From Mycobacteroides abscessus ATCC 19977 (GTDB lineage Bacteria; Actinomycetota; Actinomycetes; Mycobacteriales; Mycobacteriaceae): a stretch of DNA of 64,000 bases. Each line of letters opens with the position of its first letter. Within the stretch, counting starts at the first letter, position 1. A model generated the notes under the pieces. The model saw nothing but the letters and a program-made list of their open reading frames with translations, was not told where the DNA came from and searched no databases. Below, in pieces: positions 7,556 through 39,135 of this stretch. Both the position numbers and the translations under genes were made by a program. The stretch spans positions 2,728,001 through 2,792,000 of the forward strand of contig NC_010397.1 of the NCBI RefSeq assembly GCF_000069185.1, in the 5' to 3' direction.

Positions 7556-8815
7556 CTATGTCAGATAGCGGAAGGCCGGCGAGTCCGGCTCCAGCCGTTC
7601 GATATCCAGCCCGGAAAACCGCATCCGATCCAGCAGACCCGACAGGTCATCCGCGTAGCTGAGCTCGATGCCCACCAAAGCGGCACCCATCTCGCGGTTG
7701 TTCCGCTTGACGTACTCGAACAGCGTGATGTCGTCGTTGGGCCCCAGCACCTCGCCGAGAAAGCGCCGCAGCGCACCCGGTTCCTGCGGGAAGTCCACCA
7801 GGAAGTAGTGCTTGAGCCCCAGGTGCACCAACGAGCGTTCCAGGATCTCGCCGTACCGCGAAACATCATTGTTGCCACCGGAAATCAGGCAGACGACGGT
7901 GGCGCCCGGCTCGATCGCCATCTCCGCCAGCGCGGCCACCGACAGCGCACCGGCGGGCTCAGCGATGATCCCCTCGTTCTGGTAAAGCTCCAGCATCGCG
8001 GTGCAGGCGGCACCCTCATCGACTGTCGTGAGCGTGAGCATCTCCCCCGCCGCGGCAAGCACCCGATATGGAGCAGCCCCGGCTACCTGTACGGCACAGC
8101 CGTCGACAAAGGGATCCACATGGTCGAGCGGAACCGGACCGCCGGCCCGCAAGGCCGCGGCCATACAGGCAGCACCGGCGGGTTCCACCCCCACCACGCG
8201 AACCTCAGGGGCACGCTCGCGCAGGTAGGTGACGATCCCCGAGATGCAGCCGCCACCGCCGACCGGTACCACCACCACGTCGGGCGGACTATCCAATTGA
8301 TCGAGTATCTCCGCGGCGATGGTGCCCTGGCCCGCGATCGTTCGCACATCGTCAAAGGCCGGCACCAGGGTGGCACCGGTACGCGCGGCATCGGCCTTGG
8401 CCGCGGCCGCAGCCTCGTCATAGCCGTGCCCGACCGCGATCAGCTCCACAAACCCATTGCCGTGGTAGATGATTCGCTGCCGCTTCTGCTTAGGGGTTTT
8501 ACTGGGGATGTACACCCGGCCGTGCACGCCCATCGACTTGCACGCCAGCGCGAATCCCTGAGCGTGGTTACCGGCACTGGAACACACCACGCCGGCGGCC
8601 TTCTCCTCATCGCTGAGCTGCATCAGCAGGTTGAACGCACCGCGCACCTTGTAGGAGCGGACCGACTGCAGATCTTCACGCTTCAGATACACCTCGGCGC
8701 GGGTGAGGGCCGAGAGCCGATCGGCGTGCTGCAGCGGTGTGGGATGGACGACCTCGTCGATGCGCTTGGCCGCGGCATCGATATCGGCGGCCGTCACCAC
8801 CTCGGACGTGCTCAA
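7556..8815 (-). CDS. ilvA: L-threonine dehydratase, biosynthetic (IlvA)
   Basis: IlvA deaminates threonine to 2-oxobutanoate, the entry step of isoleucine synthesis. From the TTG at 8815 the protein is 419 residues. [11 protein letters not shown] carries the PLP lysine (Lys 56), SSAGNHAQG is the phosphate-binding loop region, and [11 protein letters not shown] follows. A C-terminal ACT-like regulatory part ([18 protein letters not shown], about 325-415) is of the short type. The TTG start overlaps the stop of the upstream gene as TTGA (8812-8815), which fixes the start and implies translational coupling. The open frame extends further upstream, but only antisense to or inside the previous gene. 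Confidence 0.95.
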
Positions 8816-33642: not shown

Positions 33643-34374
33643 ATGGGGTTCCGGCAGATCGGGAGAACGGCCGTCGCAACGCTGCGACGGCTGCCGCGAC
33701 GCCAGCTGCTGTGGACCGGCGCCGCTCTTCTTATTGTGATCGCCGCGGTCCGGTTTGTCCCGCTGCCGACGGCCCTACAGATGCGCGACTGGGCGCGCGA
33801 CCTCGGCCCGTGGTTCCCGCTCGCTTTCCTGGGCGCACACACGATCGTGACGGTGCTGCCCTTCCCCCGCACCGCGTTCACCCTGGCTGCCGGGCTGCTG
33901 TTCGGGACACAACTCGGCGTGCTGCTGGCCGTCGTCGCCAGCACCGCAAGTGCGGTCCTGGCCCTGTGGGCGGTCCGGGCGCTGGGATGGAAGCTCAGTG
34001 CATTGCATCACCGTCCCGCGGTGAAAAGCGTGGACGATCAGTTGCGCCGGCGCGGCTGGATCGCGGTGATGTCGATGCGACTCATCCCGGCGGTGCCGTT
34101 TTCGGTACTCAATTACGCGGCAGGGGCCTCCGCCGTGCGGGCGCTGCCCTACACGCTGGCCACCTTCGTCGGTCTGCTCCCGGGCACGTTGGCCGTCGTC
34201 GTGCTTGGTGACGCATTGACCGGGCACATCAGTCCCACACTCTTCGCCGTCTCGTTGGCTACCTCGGCGATCGGCGTGCTGGGCATCCTCTATGAAATTC
34301 GGCGCTATAAACGCACGCACACCGAGATCCCTGATCCGGAAAGCTCCGGCGCGCCCGAACGCGTCGGCCGCTAG
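33643..34374 (+). CDS. TVP38/TMEM64 (SNARE-associated, DedA-like) membrane protein
   Basis: The 243-residue protein has five to six membrane segments and the VTT-domain core: LGAHTIVTVLPFPRTAFTLAAGLLFG (residues about 65-90) and AVMSMRLIPAVPFSVLNYAAGAS (about 143-165). Such proteins move or scramble lipids in the cytoplasmic membrane. It corresponds to Rv1491c, also divergent from mutA. The gene starts at the ATG at 33643, since the upstream open frame is antisense to mutA. The 182-bp gap to mutA must hold both promoters; I see no clear hexamers. Confidence 0.82.
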   Translation: MGFRQIGRTAVATLRRLPRRQLLWTGAALLIVIAAVRFVPLPTALQMRDWARDLGPWFPLAFLGAHTIVTVLPFPRTAFTLAAGLLFGTQLGVLLAVVASTASAVLALWAVRALGWKLSALHHRPAVKSVDDQLRRRGWIAVMSMRLIPAVPFSVLNYAAGASAVRALPYTLATFVGLLPGTLAVVVLGDALTGHISPTLFAVSLATSAIGVLGILYEIRRYKRTHTEIPDPESSGAPERVGR

Positions 34375-34748
34375 GGTTGTACGACTTCTCGTTCGTCAAA
34401 TCCCTTGGCGGTAAGCACAGCGAACAATGCGAGCAGGCTTGTCGCGGGTAACGCGTTGAGCATCTTGTCGTGTGCGCGTAGGTGTGCGCCGACTGCCAAA
34501 GTGAAGTAAACGGTCAGCATGAATGTGGTCAGTCTGCCCAGCGCCGACCACCGTATCCCGCCGATGAGCCCCGCTGCCGACGCGGTCTTCACGACGGGTA
34601 ATAGCCACCAGATATCTTGCGGCAGACCGACTTTCTCCAGAGAATCTTTGACCGGTTTGATCGGCCCGACACAAGCCGCGGCATCGGCAGCCTGGACGGC
34701 GGCCAGCACGGCCAAGACCCTGGGTTTGGCTAAAAGCCGTTCCGTCAT
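34371..34748 (-). CDS. DoxX-like membrane protein, copy A
   Basis: The 125-residue protein has four predicted membrane helices: near 10-27, 45-65 (LPVVKTASAAGLIGGI), 72-90 (LTTFMLTVYFTLAVGAHLRA) and 98-115. KxASAxGLxGG and YFTLAVGAHxRA are the DoxX-like (PF13564) hallmarks. The ATG overlaps the stop of copy B (ATGA, 34745-34748), so the two are translated together. It is the last gene of the proposed Mg2+ operon and converges on the TVP38 gene with a 4-bp overlap. Biochemical role unknown. Confidence 0.8.
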   Translation of the reverse strand: MTERLLAKPRVLAVLAAVQAADAAACVGPIKPVKDSLEKVGLPQDIWWLLPVVKTASAAGLIGGIRWSALGRLTTFMLTVYFTLAVGAHLRAHDKMLNALPATSLLALFAVLTAKGFDEREVVQP

Positions 34749-35113
34749 GATGATTTCGCCCCCAACCCCTTCACCATCAGGGCGCCGTAGGTGGCGAGCA
34801 AAGCCGACGCCGAGACGGCGTTCAGCCCGATATCGCGCGCGCGAACATGCGCTCCGACCGCCAGGGTGAAGTAGACGGTCAGCATGAGCAGGGTTAGCTT
34901 CGCAAGCCACGGGAACCGGATGCCCCCTAACAGGCCCACCGCCGACGCCGCCTTGATGGGCGCGAAGATCCACCGATATTGCTGCGGATAGCGCACATCA
35001 TCGAGGCACTTGGCCACGTAGGGAATCGGCTGGACGCAGATGGCGGCGTCAACAGCCTGGAATGAGGCCAGAAGAGCCAGAACTCGCGGAGATACGAAAG
35101 CGCCATTGCTCAT
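34745..35113 (-). CDS. DoxX-like membrane protein, copy B
   Basis: The 122-residue protein is a paralogue of copy A (PRVLALLASFQAVDAAICVQPI against PRVLAVLAAVQAADAACVGPI, compared position by position) with the same four helices and LTVYFTLAVGAHVRARD. TGGAGTAATG gives a ribosome site at the ATG. It starts 53 bp after the small gene at 35167-35298. Tandem duplication with coupled translation suggests a heteromeric membrane complex; that is inference. Confidence 0.8.
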   Translation of the reverse strand: MSNGAFVSPRVLALLASFQAVDAAICVQPIPYVAKCLDDVRYPQQYRWIFAPIKAASAVGLLGGIRFPWLAKLTLLMLTVYFTLAVGAHVRARDIGLNAVSASALLATYGALMVKGLGAKSS

Positions 35114-35166
35114 TACTCCAGTGAACCACTACTACGCCGCGCAGACGATGGCGCGACCGATTCCCG

Positions 35167-35298
35167 CTAGTGAGGAGCGTGTGCACCCAACGATGCGGAG
35201 ATAACGGCCAATGGCGACAGGGCCAGCTGCATGTTGGCCCGCTCCTGGGGGGTCAGCCGACGGCGCTCCCAGAAAAGTCGCAACGCGCGAATACTCAT
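35167..35298 (-). CDS. 43-residue small protein, paralogue of the M-box small protein
   Basis: Reading the minus strand from the ATG at 35298 to the TAG at 35167 gives a 43-residue basic protein. Its segment LTPQERANMQLALSPLAV is nearly identical to LTPQERANLQLAYSPLAV of the product at 38550-38687, and both end SASLGAH-P. The N-terminal part (LRLFWERRR) is basic and aromatic in both. It lies between the NRAMP-like and DoxX-like genes, with AGAGAG before the ATG. No known family comes to mind. Conservation between two independent copies is the evidence that it is a real gene. Confidence 0.8.
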   Translation of the reverse strand: MSIRALRLFWERRRLTPQERANMQLALSPLAVISASLGAHAPH

Positions 35299-35310
35299 CT
35301 CTCTATTGGA

Positions 35311-35344
35311 CGCGGCCGCGCCGACATAATCCAGCGCGGCCGCG
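35311..35344 (-). repeat. intercistronic hairpin before the second small gene
   Basis: cgcggccgcgc (35311-35321) and gcgcggccgcg (35334-35344) are perfect 11-bp arms around a 12-base loop. In the minus-strand transcript the very stable hairpin would lie between the NRAMP-like stop codon and the small gene's ribosome site, 12 bases before its ATG. No U-run follows, so a role in mRNA processing, stability or partial polarity is more likely than intrinsic termination. Confidence 0.6.
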
Positions 35345-35381
35345 ATATCCCAACGAATTCATGACGCGTCCCTTGCGGGGC

Positions 35382-37112
35382 TCAGTTGCCGTGGGCGAGT
35401 TGAATCGCCTTCACCACCAACAGAATGGCACCGACAACCAGATAGCCCCGGAGCGCGAGCATGCCCAGCTTTGTCCCCGGGCTCCACCTGACGGGTTCGA
35501 GCAGTGCCAGCGGCGGCATGCGCCACGTCCGCGCATCTACGCCGTCGAGCACTTTGGTCATCGCCAGCACCGCGGGATCGGCGCGTTGTCGGCTCGATAC
35601 CCACCACAGGCCTGTACCGATCAACACCGCGAGAATCGTGACACCCACCGCCAGATCACGCGCGACCTCCACCACATCCAGATCCGGGAAGAGCGTGGTG
35701 GCCATCAGAATGCCGGAAAGGAACAGCAGCACGCCGACGATGAGCCCGGCGACAATGTTGAGCCACGGCTTATTGACCCACGGACCCAATACCGCCTTGT
35801 CATTGCACAGCAACAGCAGGAACACACTCGCGCTGGGCAGTAGCAAGCCGGCCAGGGCCTGCACCGCGGTGGTCATGAGCCCGAGTGGGGCGTTCGGTAT
35901 CAGCACTATGGCCGCCCCCACCCCGACCATCACCGTGTAGGACAGGTAGAACGGCTTGGCGTCCTTGAAGCTACGGTGCAGTGAGTGCTTGAGTCCGAAG
36001 GTGTCCCCGAACGCGTAACTCGTAGCCAGGGTGACCGCAGCCGCACCGATTATCGACGCGTCCAACAGCACGATCGCGAAGATCTTGCCCAGCAACGGTT
36101 GCACCTGCCCCAGCCATTCGGCGATGAGGCCCGCATCACCGCTGTCGCCCCACTTGTCCGGGCCCGAATTACCGGTCGCGCGGGCGGCGTAGTCGGCGGT
36201 CATGAGCAGGGCGGCGGCCCCGATCACCACCACGAGTGAGCCGATCACGGTGTCGGCGCGCTCGTATCCGATGAAACGTGGGGTGATGCGCTTGTCGACG
36301 ATGTTGGACTGCTGGAAGAAGAGCTGCCACGGAGCTACCGTGGTGCCCACCATGGCGATGATCAGCAGCACCGCCCCCGAGCTGACGCCGCCGTCGATAC
36401 CAGGGACCACGAAATCGTGTGCGGCCCTTCCCCACTGCGGCTCGGCCAGCAAGAACATCGGAATCTGCAGCAGCGTGATCGCGATGAAGACGAACATGGC
36501 CCGCTCCCAGCGTCGGAAACTCCCGGTGGCCATGATCAGAATCAGGGCGATGGCCGCGAGGGGAACGGTGTAGTACTTCGAGACGCCCAGATACTCGGAA
36601 GCCAGTGCGACACCGATAAATTCGGTGACAAGGGTAAGAAAGTTCAGGATGAACAAGTCGCCCACCGAGAACCAGCCCCAGCCACGACCGAACCGCTCAT
36701 TGATCAACCGGGCGTGCCCGACTCCGGTCACCGCTCCGAGGCGAACCACCATCTCCTGGTTCACGATGAGGACGGGGATCAGCAGCAAGAGCACCCAGAG
36801 CAGGCTGTACCCGTAGCTCTGACCGGCCTGCGCGTAGGTTGCGACGCCGCCCGCGTCGTTGTCGCCGACCATGACGATGATGCCCGGCCCCAGGATGGCG
36901 GCCATGGTGGCCATCCGCGACCTGAAGGTACGGGCCTGCCCGGGATCACTGACGCTGATCTTGCCGAACGCACCTTCGATATCTCCCAGGTGAGCCGAAT
37001 CGAGCACAGCGCTCTTCGGTTGCGATACTTGCACTTTGAGCTGTCCGTTCGCAGTTTCCGCGCCGTTGACAGACCCGTTGACAGACCCGTTGACGATGCC
37101 GTTTTCACTCAT
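35382..37112 (-). CDS. NRAMP-family transporter with Mg2+-type (NRMT-like) metal site
   Basis: The 576-residue protein has a hydrophilic N-terminus of about 65 residues and about eleven membrane helices. Helix 1 reads GDNDAGGVATYAQAG: the NRAMP DPGN motif is DAGG (86-89), so Asp is kept and Asn is replaced by Gly. Helix 6 reads GTTVAPWQLFFQ: MPH is APW (260-262), so the Met that selects transition metals is Ala. From memory, these are the exchanges seen in NRAMP-related Mg2+ transporters. With the M-box leader and an MgtE-like partner, Mg2+ uptake is the best reading, not Mn2+ or Fe2+. Its ATG overlaps the partner's stop (ATGA, 37109-37112). Confidence 0.85.
   Translation of the reverse strand: MSENGIVNGSVNGSVNGAETANGQLKVQVSQPKSAVLDSAHLGDIEGAFGKISVSDPGQARTFRSRMATMAAILGPGIIVMVGDNDAGGVATYAQAGQSYGYSLLWVLLLLIPVLIVNQEMVVRLGAVTGVGHARLINERFGRGWGWFSVGDLFILNFLTLVTEFIGVALASEYLGVSKYYTVPLAAIALILIMATGSFRRWERAMFVFIAITLLQIPMFLLAEPQWGRAAHDFVVPGIDGGVSSGAVLLIIAMVGTTVAPWQLFFQQSNIVDKRITPRFIGYERADTVIGSLVVVIGAAALLMTADYAARATGNSGPDKWGDSGDAGLIAEWLGQVQPLLGKIFAIVLLDASIIGAAAVTLATSYAFGDTFGLKHSLHRSFKDAKPFYLSYTVMVGVGAAIVLIPNAPLGLMTTAVQALAGLLLPSASVFLLLLCNDKAVLGPWVNKPWLNIVAGLIVGVLLFLSGILMATTLFPDLDVVEVARDLAVGVTILAVLIGTGLWWVSSRQRADPAVLAMTKVLDGVDARTWRMPPLALLEPVRWSPGTKLGMLALRGYLVVGAILLVVKAIQLAHGN
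37063..37094. repeat. 12-bp tandem repeat in the transporter N-terminus
   Basis: The unit ccgttgacagac occurs twice in full and once in part (ccgttgac). In frame it encodes Val-Asn-Gly-Ser repeats near residues 8-17 of the NRAMP-like protein (VNGSVNGSVNG). Slippage would change the length of the cytoplasmic tail in steps of four residues without breaking the frame. Confidence 0.8.
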
Positions 37113-38413
37113 GGCGCGACTCCGTCGGGGTTCGACGCGGCCTGACGGACCGGCCGCGGGGCCGGTTCACGCCGCCGCCAATCCTGGGGGATGAGCGCGG
37201 CCAACACGTCGTCATAGGTCACGACCCCGAGCACCCTGTCGCCCTCGTCGACAACGGGGATCAGGGCCAGGTTGTAGTCGGCCATCAGCAGGGCGACATC
37301 GGTGAGATCGGCCTGCGGTGCCACCCGCACCGGATCGTCGTCCATGACCGATTCCACCGCGGCGTCACCATCGGCCTGAAGCAGCCGGATCACCGACACC
37401 ACACCCACCAATTCGCCGTTATCGGCCAGCACATGCACCTTCAGCAATGCCTCGGGCTGCAGGGATTTGGCGGCGGAGATGGCCCCCAGTGCGGCGCCGA
37501 CAGTGCTCCCGAGCACACAGGACACGATGTCGACGTTCATCAAACCGCCCGCCGACTCGGGGCTGAACCCCATCAAGGTGACCACCTTGGTGCGCTGCGG
37601 CGCGGGCATCAGCTCCAGAACCGCGCGACGGCGGGACTGACGCAGGTCGAAAATGGCATCTGCCGCATCGTCCGCGCGCATGCGGCCGAGGAGAGCCGCG
37701 ACATCGCCGTCGGACATGTCTTCGAACAGCTTGCCGGCCTTCTCCGAATCGAGTTCCTCGAATACGTCGGCCTCGAGCTCAGGGTTGTCGCGGACGCGAT
37801 CCAGGATCTCGCCGCCCTCCTCCTTGGTGGCCTCCTCGAGCAGATCGGCGATCTCGGCGGGCTTGAGGGTGTTCACCCGTCCGCCGACACGGCGCGCCAA
37901 CAGGGAACCACCATGCCCGATCATGGGTTCGAAGGCTTTCCAATCCCGCCCAGCCTGGCCCGCGCCAGCCTTGATAAGACCGAAAAACCTTGCGGGACGA
38001 CGAGTATCGAGACGGGCAAGAATCCACCCCTCAGCCGTTTCCTGCAGCTCGATGTCATAGGCGTGTACCAATTCGGCGTTGTCGACATCGATGAACCGGT
38101 GGTCGAGTACGTCCTCGTCGAGCAGGTACTCACCGTCGCGGCGCTCGAAGCCCCTGAGGTCAACCTTGTTCTTGCTCAACTCGATTCGATCCGGCGCCAC
38201 GACAGAAACCACGTCCGCGGAAATGAAGACGGTGCGCCCGCCCATGTCCACGACGTATCCGGTGACGAGCGGATACCGGTCGGACCCGCGGAGCCGGACA
38301 ATCACATCCTCCAGCCGGCCAATGGTCTCACCGGACCGCGCGACAACCGGAGCCTTCAATAGATCTGAGAATTGAATTACCCGCGGCGTAGCCGCCGTGT
38401 TCGAAGTAGCCAT
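37109..38413 (-). CDS. soluble MgtE-like sensor: PRC-barrel, MgtE_N and CBS pair, no membrane domain
   Basis: The 434-residue protein has two PRC-barrel-like segments (about 10-130), an MgtE intracellular N-domain of helical repeats (about 175-290: LKPAEIADLLEE, LEADVFEELDSEKAGKLFEDM, GDVAALLGRM) and a CBS pair (about 295-415, ending DRVLGVVTYDDVLAALIP). In MgtE channels the same N-CBS module binds Mg2+ and closes the pore. Here the transmembrane domain is entirely missing and no hydrophobic helix is present. The downstream NRAMP-like gene overlaps its stop by four bases, so it is probably the Mg2+-sensing subunit of that transporter. GAGGAG lies five bases before the ATG. Confidence 0.88.
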   Translation of the reverse strand: MATSNTAATPRVIQFSDLLKAPVVARSGETIGRLEDVIVRLRGSDRYPLVTGYVVDMGGRTVFISADVVSVVAPDRIELSKNKVDLRGFERRDGEYLLDEDVLDHRFIDVDNAELVHAYDIELQETAEGWILARLDTRRPARFFGLIKAGAGQAGRDWKAFEPMIGHGGSLLARRVGGRVNTLKPAEIADLLEEATKEEGGEILDRVRDNPELEADVFEELDSEKAGKLFEDMSDGDVAALLGRMRADDAADAIFDLRQSRRRAVLELMPAPQRTKVVTLMGFSPESAGGLMNVDIVSCVLGSTVGAALGAISAAKSLQPEALLKVHVLADNGELVGVVSVIRLLQADGDAAVESVMDDDPVRVAPQADLTDVALLMADYNLALIPVVDEGDRVLGVVTYDDVLAALIPQDWRRREPAPRPVRQAASNPDGVAP

Positions 38414-38434
38414 GCCGACTCCTCAGCGTTTGCA

Positions 38435-38478
38435 CCAATACGCTTCGCCCGCCCGGGTGGGTGGACGAAGCGTATTGG
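38435..38478 (-). repeat. 13-bp perfect intercistronic hairpin before the MgtE-like gene
   Basis: ccaatacgcttcg (38435-38447) and cgaagcgtattgg (38466-38478) form a perfect 13-bp stem, and the loop contains a further cccg-type dyad (cccgcccgggtggg). A second, shorter dyad (ccacgcac, 38500-38507, with gtgcgtgg, 38520-38527) lies next to it. Together they fill most of the 136 bases between the small gene and the MgtE-like gene. No U-run follows, so I expect mRNA processing or stabilisation. Confidence 0.65.
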
Positions 38479-38549
38479 CCTCGAATGAATTCCGAATGTC
38501 CACGCACTGTGAATCGACTGTGCGTGGTAGTGATTGCCGTACCGCCGAA

Positions 38550-38687
38550 CTACCGCGGTGGATGTGCCCCGAGCGATGCCGATACGACGGCAAGCGGCGA
38601 GTACGCCAACTGCAGGTTGGCCCGCTCTTGCGGGGTCAGGCGGTGCCGGATCCAGATACGGCGGACGGCGTTGAATGTTGTGGTCAT
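38550..38687 (-). CDS. 45-residue small protein under M-box control
   Basis: The protein starts at the ATG at 38687 with an ideal AAGGAG site seven bases upstream and has 45 residues. The N-terminus FNAVRRIWIRHR is basic and aromatic, the core is LTPQERANLQLAYSPLAV and the end is SASLGAHPP. It is the first gene behind the M-box riboswitch. In M. tuberculosis the M-box precedes a short gene of unknown function, Rv1535; I cannot compare the sequences here. A 43-residue paralogue lies at 35167-35298. No membrane segment is evident. It might be a regulator of the transporter complex, which is inference. Confidence 0.85.
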   Translation of the reverse strand: MTTTFNAVRRIWIRHRLTPQERANLQLAYSPLAVVSASLGAHPPR

Positions 38688-38694
38688 GATCGGA

Positions 38695-38788
38695 CTCCTT
38701 CTAGGGAGAGCCGCATACCCGAACCCGAGCGTCAAAAATGTTGACTCAAGCGAGGGTTCACCCTCGAACGCGCAGCAAGGTATGCGGC
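38695..38788 (-). ncRNA. structured leader RNA: three-way junction and ribosome-site hairpin
   Basis: In the minus-strand transcript, gccgcatacc (complement of 38779-38788) pairs with ggtatgcggc (complement of 38710-38719), closing a junction with two inner hairpins: cgaggg-tgaa-ccctcg (38751-38766) and gtcaa-n5-ttgac (38731-38745). Immediately after it, CTCC (38705-38708) can pair with GGAG (38695-38698) of the small gene's ribosome site. This looks like an expression platform of the Mg2+ leader. It is drawn by hand from complementarity only. Confidence 0.55.
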
Positions 38789-38823
38789 AGCTGTTGTCTA
38801 TGCGGACCATCGCCGGATATCAC
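38758..38823 (-). CDS. possible 21-residue leader peptide in the M-box leader
   Basis: GTG at 38823 opens a 21-residue frame ending with TGA at 38758-38760. A strong site, AAGGAGGTGAGG (38831-38842), has seven bases of spacing to the GTG. The stop codon lies in the loop of the cgaggg hairpin and the frame covers the 5' strand of the three-way junction, so its translation would disrupt that fold. This is a speculative uORF; the peptide (starting MISGDGPHRQQLPHT) resembles nothing I know. Confidence 0.3.
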   Translation of the reverse strand: MISGDGPHRQQLPHTLLRVRG

Positions 38824-38898
38824 GGTCGTGCCTCACCTCCTTGCCGTCGGGGCGCGCGCGGGCGCCTGCTGCAGGAACAGCGACCAAGAGAGGGAGAG

Positions 38899-38928
38899 AA
38901 AATTGCCGAACAACGAACGCCGCCCGGC
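38899..38928 (-). terminator. possible intrinsic terminator behind the M-box
   Basis: On the minus strand GCCGGGC (38922-38928) can pair with GTTCGGC (38905-38911) through two G-U pairs and a 10-base loop, followed by AATTTTC with a short U-run. It lies directly after the aptamer, where an M-box normally has a Mg2+-dependent terminator. The stem is modest and the U-run only four bases, so confidence is limited. Confidence 0.4.
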
Positions 38929-38929
38929 A

Positions 38930-39096
38930 CGCACCCCTCTCGTCAGGGCTTCGGCACTACGTGACGTGTCCGCCAGCGGAAGCCACTTCGGGTCATCCCT
39001 TAGTCCGGGAAGACCTGTCCTAACCTTGGGCGTCTCTCGACGTCGTCAGATCAGTGGCCTGTATTCACGTAGGAGCCTCACCTAGCAAGGTGCTGA
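38930..39096 (-). promoter_or_regulatory. M-box (ykoK) magnesium riboswitch
   Basis: On the minus strand the leader contains CTAGGTGAGGCTCCTACGTG (about 39066-39085) followed by ATACAGGCCACTG, GACGTCGAGAGACGCCCAAGG-type sequence, AGGACAGG, GGGATGACC and AAGTGGCTTC, in the order and spacing of the Rfam M-box. The 3' part (GTAGTGCCGAAGC) is also like the consensus. The aptamer binds several Mg2+ ions and lowers expression of downstream genes when Mg2+ is plentiful. Downstream genes are the 45-residue protein, the MgtE-like sensor and the NRAMP-like transporter. Ends are approximate. Confidence 0.93.
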
Positions 39097-39106
39097 ACCG
39101 GTACCC

Positions 39107-39135
39107 ATGATGGGCCGCTGAAATAGGCTTGTCAA
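39107..39135 (-). promoter_or_regulatory. promoter of the M-box operon
   Basis: On the minus strand TTGACA (39130-39135) is followed after exactly 17 bp by CATCAT (39107-39112), a consensus -35 with an acceptable mycobacterial -10. A start near 39100 would place the M-box aptamer at the very 5' end of the transcript. The promoter is within the 41 bases that follow the stop codon of the SPFH gene. Confidence 0.75.

Follow-up and report, generated by a model that had tools for sequence, protein, structure and literature searches.

The window analyzed here, a 64,000-nucleotide stretch of the Mycobacteroides abscessus ATCC 19977 genome (5.09 Mb; NC_010397.1, positions 2,728,001 to 2,792,000), carries on its minus strand a locus in which an M-box Mg2+ riboswitch precedes genes for a small protein, a soluble MgtE-like protein (hereafter the sensor), and an Nramp-type transporter of the NRMT group. 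In our reading, which we give a probability of about 0.6, the locus is an Mg2+ import operon under M-box control whose feedback sensor is a separate protein acting on the NRMT. The locus is real and largely known in kind, and the coupling between sensor and importer is unusually tight. If the reading is right, it would show how an NRMT is kept from overfilling the cell.

Pairing of sensor and importer across genomes

A pattern scan with the sensor alone, over a genome collection with one genome per species (84,980 species), returned 74 candidate stretches, 46 of which encode a sensor relative (38 to 93% identity), from Mycobacteroides to one Chloroflexi bin. An NRMT gene comes after the sensor gene in all 46 of these named loci, counting two in which the available sequence stops within the NRMT gene (L111 and L128) and one in Nocardia jiangxiensis (L150) that holds a decayed copy of both genes. 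The two genes overlap by ATGA at 37112-37109 in the window, as seen by sequence inspection, and a nearest-start estimate gives a 4-nucleotide overlap in 14 of 44 measured pairs. For genomes outside the family, the evidence of pairing comes from the named loci and the operons described in PMC4072509.

Within the family, we surveyed 151 Mycobacteriaceae genomes and sorted their NRMTs by identity to that of the window. Class A (71 to 78%) comprises 13 loci in 12 genomes; the sensor lies upstream on the same contig in 11 of them, and in a twelfth (genome G124) it apparently does so across two contig ends, while the exception (G107, locus L158) has an MgtC gene in place of the sensor. No sensor of at least 59% identity was found in those of the 151 genomes without a class-A NRMT. 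An M-box lies upstream of 8 of the 13 class-A loci, up to 3.3 kb away. Class B (53 to 58%) comprises seven loci, one of them in the window's own genome. Class C (33 to 39%) comprises seven more, two of which come after a gene for a short PRC-MgtE_N protein that lacks CBS and whose MgtE_N match is just under the Pfam cutoff; no PRC-MgtE_N protein was found in the other five class-C stretches.

Several loci show further arrangements. The MgtC gene of L158 lies between the M-box and the NRMT gene, and in L042 one lies between the M-box and the sensor gene. In L125, L126, and L130, the class-A pair stands beside a class-B NRMT with a small protein, and the two are convergent in L125 and L130. In L039, from the same genus as the window, an M-box is followed by PE, PPE, PPE, and sensor genes, and an NRMT gene stands at the end of another contig; this is apparently a pe20-type operon joined to the NRMT module, and it hints that the PE/PPE magnesium system (PMC12810186) is connected with an inner-membrane importer.

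The detached sensor and its Mg2+ sites

The 434-residue protein matches Pfam MgtE_N (67 bits) and CBS (58 bits), and an N-terminal PRC barrel scores 20.1 against a cutoff of 21.2; although just under that cutoff, the barrel also appears in the precomputed annotation of many sensor relatives. The protein falls well short of the MgtE channel equivalog TIGR00400 (99.8 bits against a cutoff of 232.75), and no MgtE membrane domain was reported for it. We compared it with the Mg2+ sites named for Thermus thermophilus MgtE in PMC5882242. Equivalents of D91, D95, and D247 are kept in all 45 sensor relatives and in the window, so that Mg4 and Mg6 are invariant, and the position of the Mg7 residue E59 is Asp in each of the 44 relatives with a residue there and likewise in the window. 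The corresponding window residues are D248 and D402 for Mg4, D252 for Mg6, and D216 for Mg7 (Asp for Glu). The predicted sensor structure is fair (predicted local distance difference test [pLDDT], 83.5) and retrieves MgtE cytosolic domains first, at a template modeling score of 0.31 by model length and a root mean square deviation of about 10 to 11; the domain placement of MgtE is not reproduced in the model.

The importer is closer to NRMT than to MntH

The 576-residue transporter matches Pfam Nramp at 272 bits and, among solved Nramp structures, EleNRMT at 214 bits, with the next best at 79 bits. NRMTs are defined by DxxG and TxxA/T in the ion site (PMC8806188), and the window protein has D86-A-G-G89 and T257-T-V-A260, both motifs being invariant in a 32-row alignment. 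A fold search with the predicted structure also ranks EleNRMT (7qia) first. Judged by its sequence, then, the transporter is an NRMT, far closer to EleNRMT than to MntH, and Mg2+ is its probable substrate; on this point, the signature and the similarity to EleNRMT agree with a preliminary description of the locus, which had called it an NRAMP-type Mg2+ transporter. Database proteins 97 to 98% identical to it carry the name "manganese transport transmembrane protein." If our reading holds, such names are misleading, as is the "Mn2+-type" M-box name in PMC12810186, if that name was meant for this locus.

Layout of the locus

The features of the locus are collected in Table 1. All of its parts, from 39135 to 34371, would lie on one transcript. 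Upstream on the same strand are a band-7 gene and an NfeD gene (Pfam), and downstream is a plus-strand open reading frame (ORF) ending at 34374.

Table 1. Features of the M-box/sensor/NRMT locus, in the direction of transcription
Feature	Position	Strand	Remarks
Promoter-like site TTGACA-N17-CATCAT	39107..39135	-	10/12 matches; 1 found versus 1.1 expected by chance in the scanned stretch
M-box (ykoK leader) Mg2+ riboswitch aptamer, RF00380	38928..39096	-	145.5 bits
Leader upstream ORF (uORF1), 21 codons, GTG start	38758..38823	-	Shine-Dalgarno sequence AAGGAGGTGA at 38842-38833
Hairpin GCCGCAUACC (38788-38779) / GGUAUGCGGC (38719-38710)	38710..38788	-	Between uORF1 and the Shine-Dalgarno sequence of small ORF 1
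Small protein 1, 45 residues	38550..38687	-	Position of the published uORF2/Rv1805A-like and VcgB-like ORFs
Pore-less MgtE-like sensor, PRC barrel + MgtE_N + CBS, 434 residues	37109..38413	-	
NRMT-type Nramp transporter, 576 residues	35382..37112	-	D86xxG89 and T257xxA260
Small protein 2, 43 residues	35167..35298	-	Paralogue of small protein 1
DoxX_2 protein, 122 residues	34745..35113	-	Pfam
Second DoxX_2 protein, 125 residues	34371..34748	-	Tandem paralogue of the 122-residue protein; ATGA overlap

The preliminary description had already placed the M-box on the minus strand and named the six proteins, the sizes of the two small ones, the paralogy of the 43-residue protein, the missing membrane domain of the MgtE_N-CBS protein, and the ATGA overlap, all of which we recovered. 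Its promoter exists as a matching site, but one such site is about what chance would supply, and it is weak evidence alone. The PRC barrel of the sensor and the 21-codon uORF with its own Shine-Dalgarno sequence (38823-38758) were additional to that description.

Proposed mechanism and its alternatives

Under low Mg2+, the leader would let small protein 1, the sensor, and the NRMT be made, and the NRMT would import Mg2+. Once cytosolic Mg2+ is restored, the leader would shut expression off, and Mg2+ would lock the N and CBS halves of the soluble PRC-MgtE_N-CBS protein together; the locked sensor would then bind the cytosolic face of the NRMT and stop uptake. We infer Mg2+ as the substrate, the response of the leader, the binding of sensor to NRMT, and the direction of its effect, along with whatever the small proteins and the DoxX proteins may do.

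Several observations weigh against this scheme. Mg5 is lost: D226 is replaced by Asn in all 45 relatives, and the D250 position is Glu in 39, Ala in 5, and Asp in 1, with N381 and A405 in the window. T. thermophilus MgtE carrying D226N/D250A did not close, like the Mg4 and Mg6 mutants at 20 mM Mg2+ (PMC5882242); the window has the very residues of a nonclosing channel, which makes it less likely that the MgtE mechanism was simply carried over. NrmT works without its MgtE-like fragment, rescue was no better when the A. capsulatum fragment was added in the one published coexpression test, and A. capsulatum NrmT seemed to carry mainly Mn2+ (PMC4072509). No M-box was found for 5 of the 13 class-A loci, and all seven class-B NRMTs have an M-box at most 700 nucleotides upstream, too close for an intervening sensor gene, so not every M-box NRMT comes with a sensor. 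The predicted NRMT structure is weak (pLDDT, 65), and one joint protein search gave no MgtE_N-Nramp fusion among the 120 matches listed.

The PRC-MgtE_N-CBS protein might instead not gate the NRMT at all and serve as a soluble Mg2+ or nucleotide sensor, a scaffold, or a chaperone, the genes merely sharing an operon. The lack of effect of the A. capsulatum fragment would fit this, as would a sensor paralogue (29 to 34% identity in the loci fetched) that is widespread in the family without an NRMT and has a DUF1003 gene after it; that paralogue, however, also adjoins one membrane protein, so that a membrane partner seems likely for both, and the succession of sensor and NRMT is unbroken in the 46 loci. 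We regard such a bystander role as unlikely. Quite improbable, in our judgment, is that Mn2+ (or Mn2+ and Fe2+) is the main substrate of the transporter, with the MgtE-like protein answering to Mn2+. A. capsulatum NrmT fully rescued Mn2+ transport but Mg2+ transport only at low millimolar Mg2+ (PMC4072509), EleNRMT also carries Mn2+ (PMC8806188), and both the database names of relatives and the Mn2+-type M-box class of PMC12810186 would then be right. These labels, though, are names assigned by similarity, the transporter stands behind an M-box, the NRMT signature replaces the Met of Mn2+ transporters, and the same genome has a separate, distant Nramp of the MntH-like group (C2:1040456; 24% identity).

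As for the small proteins, it is doubtful that they are subunits of the transporter and not leader peptides or independent stress peptides. Two copies flank the sensor-NRMT pair in the window and in all five Mycobacteroides relatives, both under purifying selection; the copy behind the NRMT cannot be a leader for it, and family members occur upstream of class-A, -B, and -C NRMTs. Against this, a small protein is nearby in only 2 of the 11 class-A sensor loci outside the window's own genome (151-genome set), 13 of 28 matches to the family have no M-box just upstream and some of these stand beside unrelated genes, the published relatives in Mycobacterium tuberculosis and R. equi sit in other loci (PMC12810186; PMC4974804), and expression of Rv1805A had no effect in a biofilm test (PMC12810186). 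With relatives also found away from transporters, the subunit role is no more than a candidate.

Leader and expression platform

With E = 5.5e-33, the M-box is far above the RF00380 gathering score of 44. Another M-box in the same genome (C2:4831017-4831187) precedes its class-B NRMT (L033; G000:C2:4829-4831 kb) with no room for a sensor gene and offers a natural comparison for the paired locus. In L122, an opposite-strand M-box (8469-8638, minus strand) lies just behind the sensor-NRMT pair and points into the NRMT gene; it may be a relict of a neighboring operon.

The uORF1 frame is open in the window and in all five Mycobacteroides relatives, and a Shine-Dalgarno-led ORF of 18 to 44 codons lies 3′ of 53 of the 63 M-boxes in the family (dinucleotide shuffles: mean 2.5, maximum 8). 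The hairpin behind uORF1 keeps its ten pairs in all six sequences, with one A-U to G-C double change and two changes to G-U. Examples of starts that recur in the leaders are x-S/P-G-D-S-P-Y/H and D-D-P-P-S-R. In 37 of the 53 uORFs (26 of 39 distinct starts), residues 2 to 9 contain an acidic residue with a Pro no more than three positions after it, compared with 13.5% of 460 other Shine-Dalgarno-led short ORFs; no shuffle gave more than 2 such cases in the 63 leaders. Where the start includes (D/E/H)-Ser-Pro, Ser is encoded by AGU in all 23 leaders checked, a rare codon in four window genes (10 of 106 Ser codons); the window's own uORF1 has Gly (GGU) at this position.

We considered whether uORF1 is an acidic, ribosome-destabilizing leader like MgtL, which has an EPDP motif (PMC11282234). 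This remains only a lead: an acidic start is found in none of the five uORFs of families f17 and f18, the acidic-Pro stretch begins only about 10 residues in for three f20 leaders, the uORFs are related to one another, and AGU is fixed, so that a nucleotide or codon constraint is an equally good reading. uORF1 is thus a possible ribosome readout or RNA element, in which peptide, codons, or RNA could be the acting part. Two other candidates were rejected. Pairing of uORF1 with the aptamer gave a helix score of 18.7, against 19.0 for shuffled segments, over the 53 leaders. An intrinsic terminator as the expression platform came down to a weak hairpin at 38929-38904, which is not conserved (all five relatives lack six bases of its U-rich tail), and terminator-like hairpins were no commoner than expected (4 found versus 3.5). 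PMC12810186 reports translational control and Rho-dependent termination; there, uORF1 was poorly conserved in the leaders compared, and a reporter was expressed 2.5-fold more strongly once uORF1 had been shortened to two codons.

A paralogous sensor next to DUF1003

Matches to the sensor occur in 149 of the 151 family genomes, most of those listed covering about 400 residues at 26 to 34% identity, although the weaker matches could be complete MgtE channels. In the window's genome, the paralogue introduced above (32% identity) overlaps a DUF1003 gene by ATGA (L045:5489-7263; G000:C2 about 1543608-1545382), and DUF1003 directly follows the paralogue in 19 of 19 further loci (L014 to L032, the best-scoring fetched), making 20 of 20. 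All 20 paralogues keep Mg4, Mg6, and Mg7 (as Asp); of the two Mg5 positions, D250 is retained and D226 is replaced by Asn. This parallel pair is the freshest lead of the analysis. It may be, though we hold this tentatively, that two or more unrelated membrane proteins in one cell (NRMT and DUF1003 among them) each use a stand-alone, portable MgtE gating module and that a ribosome readout in the leader (uORF1, with its acidic/proline start and fixed rare AGU codon in the relatives checked) is stacked on the M-box, so that one importer would be subject to Mg2+ sensing at the RNA, ribosome, and protein levels. DUF1003 would then be a Mg2+-handling membrane protein and gain a testable function; passages retrieved from one paper that names DUF1003 made no mention of magnesium.

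Small proteins and DoxX genes

Neither the 45-residue nor the 43-residue ORF matched a family in a Pfam search. Both are nonetheless coding and under purifying selection, judging from substitution patterns among the window and its five Mycobacteroides relatives: over the 15 pairwise comparisons, nonsynonymous divergence is at most 0.077 for small ORF 1 and 0.111 for small ORF 2, against synonymous divergence of 0.18 to 1.16 and 0.10 to 1.06, respectively. The small-protein family is found in 26 of the 151 family genomes and 11 of 31 genera, and a sample of 197 genomes from the class gave 7 with matches, all within the family; 15 of 28 matches lie within 400 nucleotides after an M-box. Pfam assigns DoxX_2 to both small membrane proteins at the end of the locus. 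One or two DoxX copies follow in the window and in all five Mycobacteroides relatives, and tblastn found none in the other sensor loci fetched. Of the gene set that the preliminary description proposed to seek in other actinobacteria, then, the sensor-NRMT pair recurs but DoxX was seen only in Mycobacteroides.

Comparison with known systems

The preliminary description interpreted the MgtE module as transplanted onto an unrelated transporter and knew of no account of such a working unit. The NRMT type, the steady gene adjacency, and the retention of most Mg2+ sites favor its interpretation, but the claim of novelty falls. Shin et al. (2014; PMC4072509) described most NrmT-group genes as adjoining a gene for an MgtE N-terminal domain, often under M-box control, and speculated that the fragment gives cytoplasmic feedback; the core unit and the feedback idea are therefore theirs. 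A 2016 study (PMC4974804) reported M. abscessus "mgtE" MAB_2717c with an M-box and a ribosome-protected VcgB-like uORF; given its gene name and the presence of only two M-boxes in this genome, MAB_2717c is probably our sensor gene and its uORF our small ORF 1. D'Halluin et al. (2026; PMC12810186) described the small-protein family and named one M-box class after manganese transporters, with M. abscessus among their nine genomes, and that class presumably includes the window locus. Our search of open-licence literature did not find the full gene set as one unit.

The window shares with the NrmT operons of PMC4072509 the M-box, the MgtE N-terminal-domain gene, and the NRMT; it differs, on the passages cited, in being actinobacterial, in the N-terminal PRC barrel of its sensor, and in the small ORFs and DoxX pair around it. 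The sensor resembles the cytosolic domain of T. thermophilus MgtE (PDB 2yvy and 2zy9) in its N and CBS domains and in keeping Mg4, Mg6, and Mg7 (as Asp), whereas it lacks the pore domain, has a changed Mg5 and an added PRC barrel, and is a separate polypeptide. EleNRMT (2022; PMC8806188), which is not proton coupled, shares the DxxG-TxxA site and is the best sequence and fold match to the window transporter, about 100 residues of which lie outside the aligned stretch; in the passages cited, the EleNRMT paper names MgtE solely as another Mg2+ transporter, while the window has a detached MgtE-like sensor. The small ORF after the M-box recalls the mycobacterial uORF2/Rv1805A/Rv0115A (PMC12810186) and the VcgB-like uORF at MAB_2717c (PMC4974804), a likeness taken from the descriptions in those papers. 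Unlike these, the window has a second copy behind the transporter, and, should these be a single family, its range extends beyond Mycobacterium, for example to Skermania sp. ID1734 (L120), whereas PMC12810186 has it as mycobacteria specific. What our analysis adds to the published picture is the consistent sensor-importer pairing, the Mg2+-site survey, the purifying selection on the small ORFs, the sighting of DoxX in Mycobacteroides only, the paralogue-DUF1003 pair, and uORF1 behind most M-boxes of the family.

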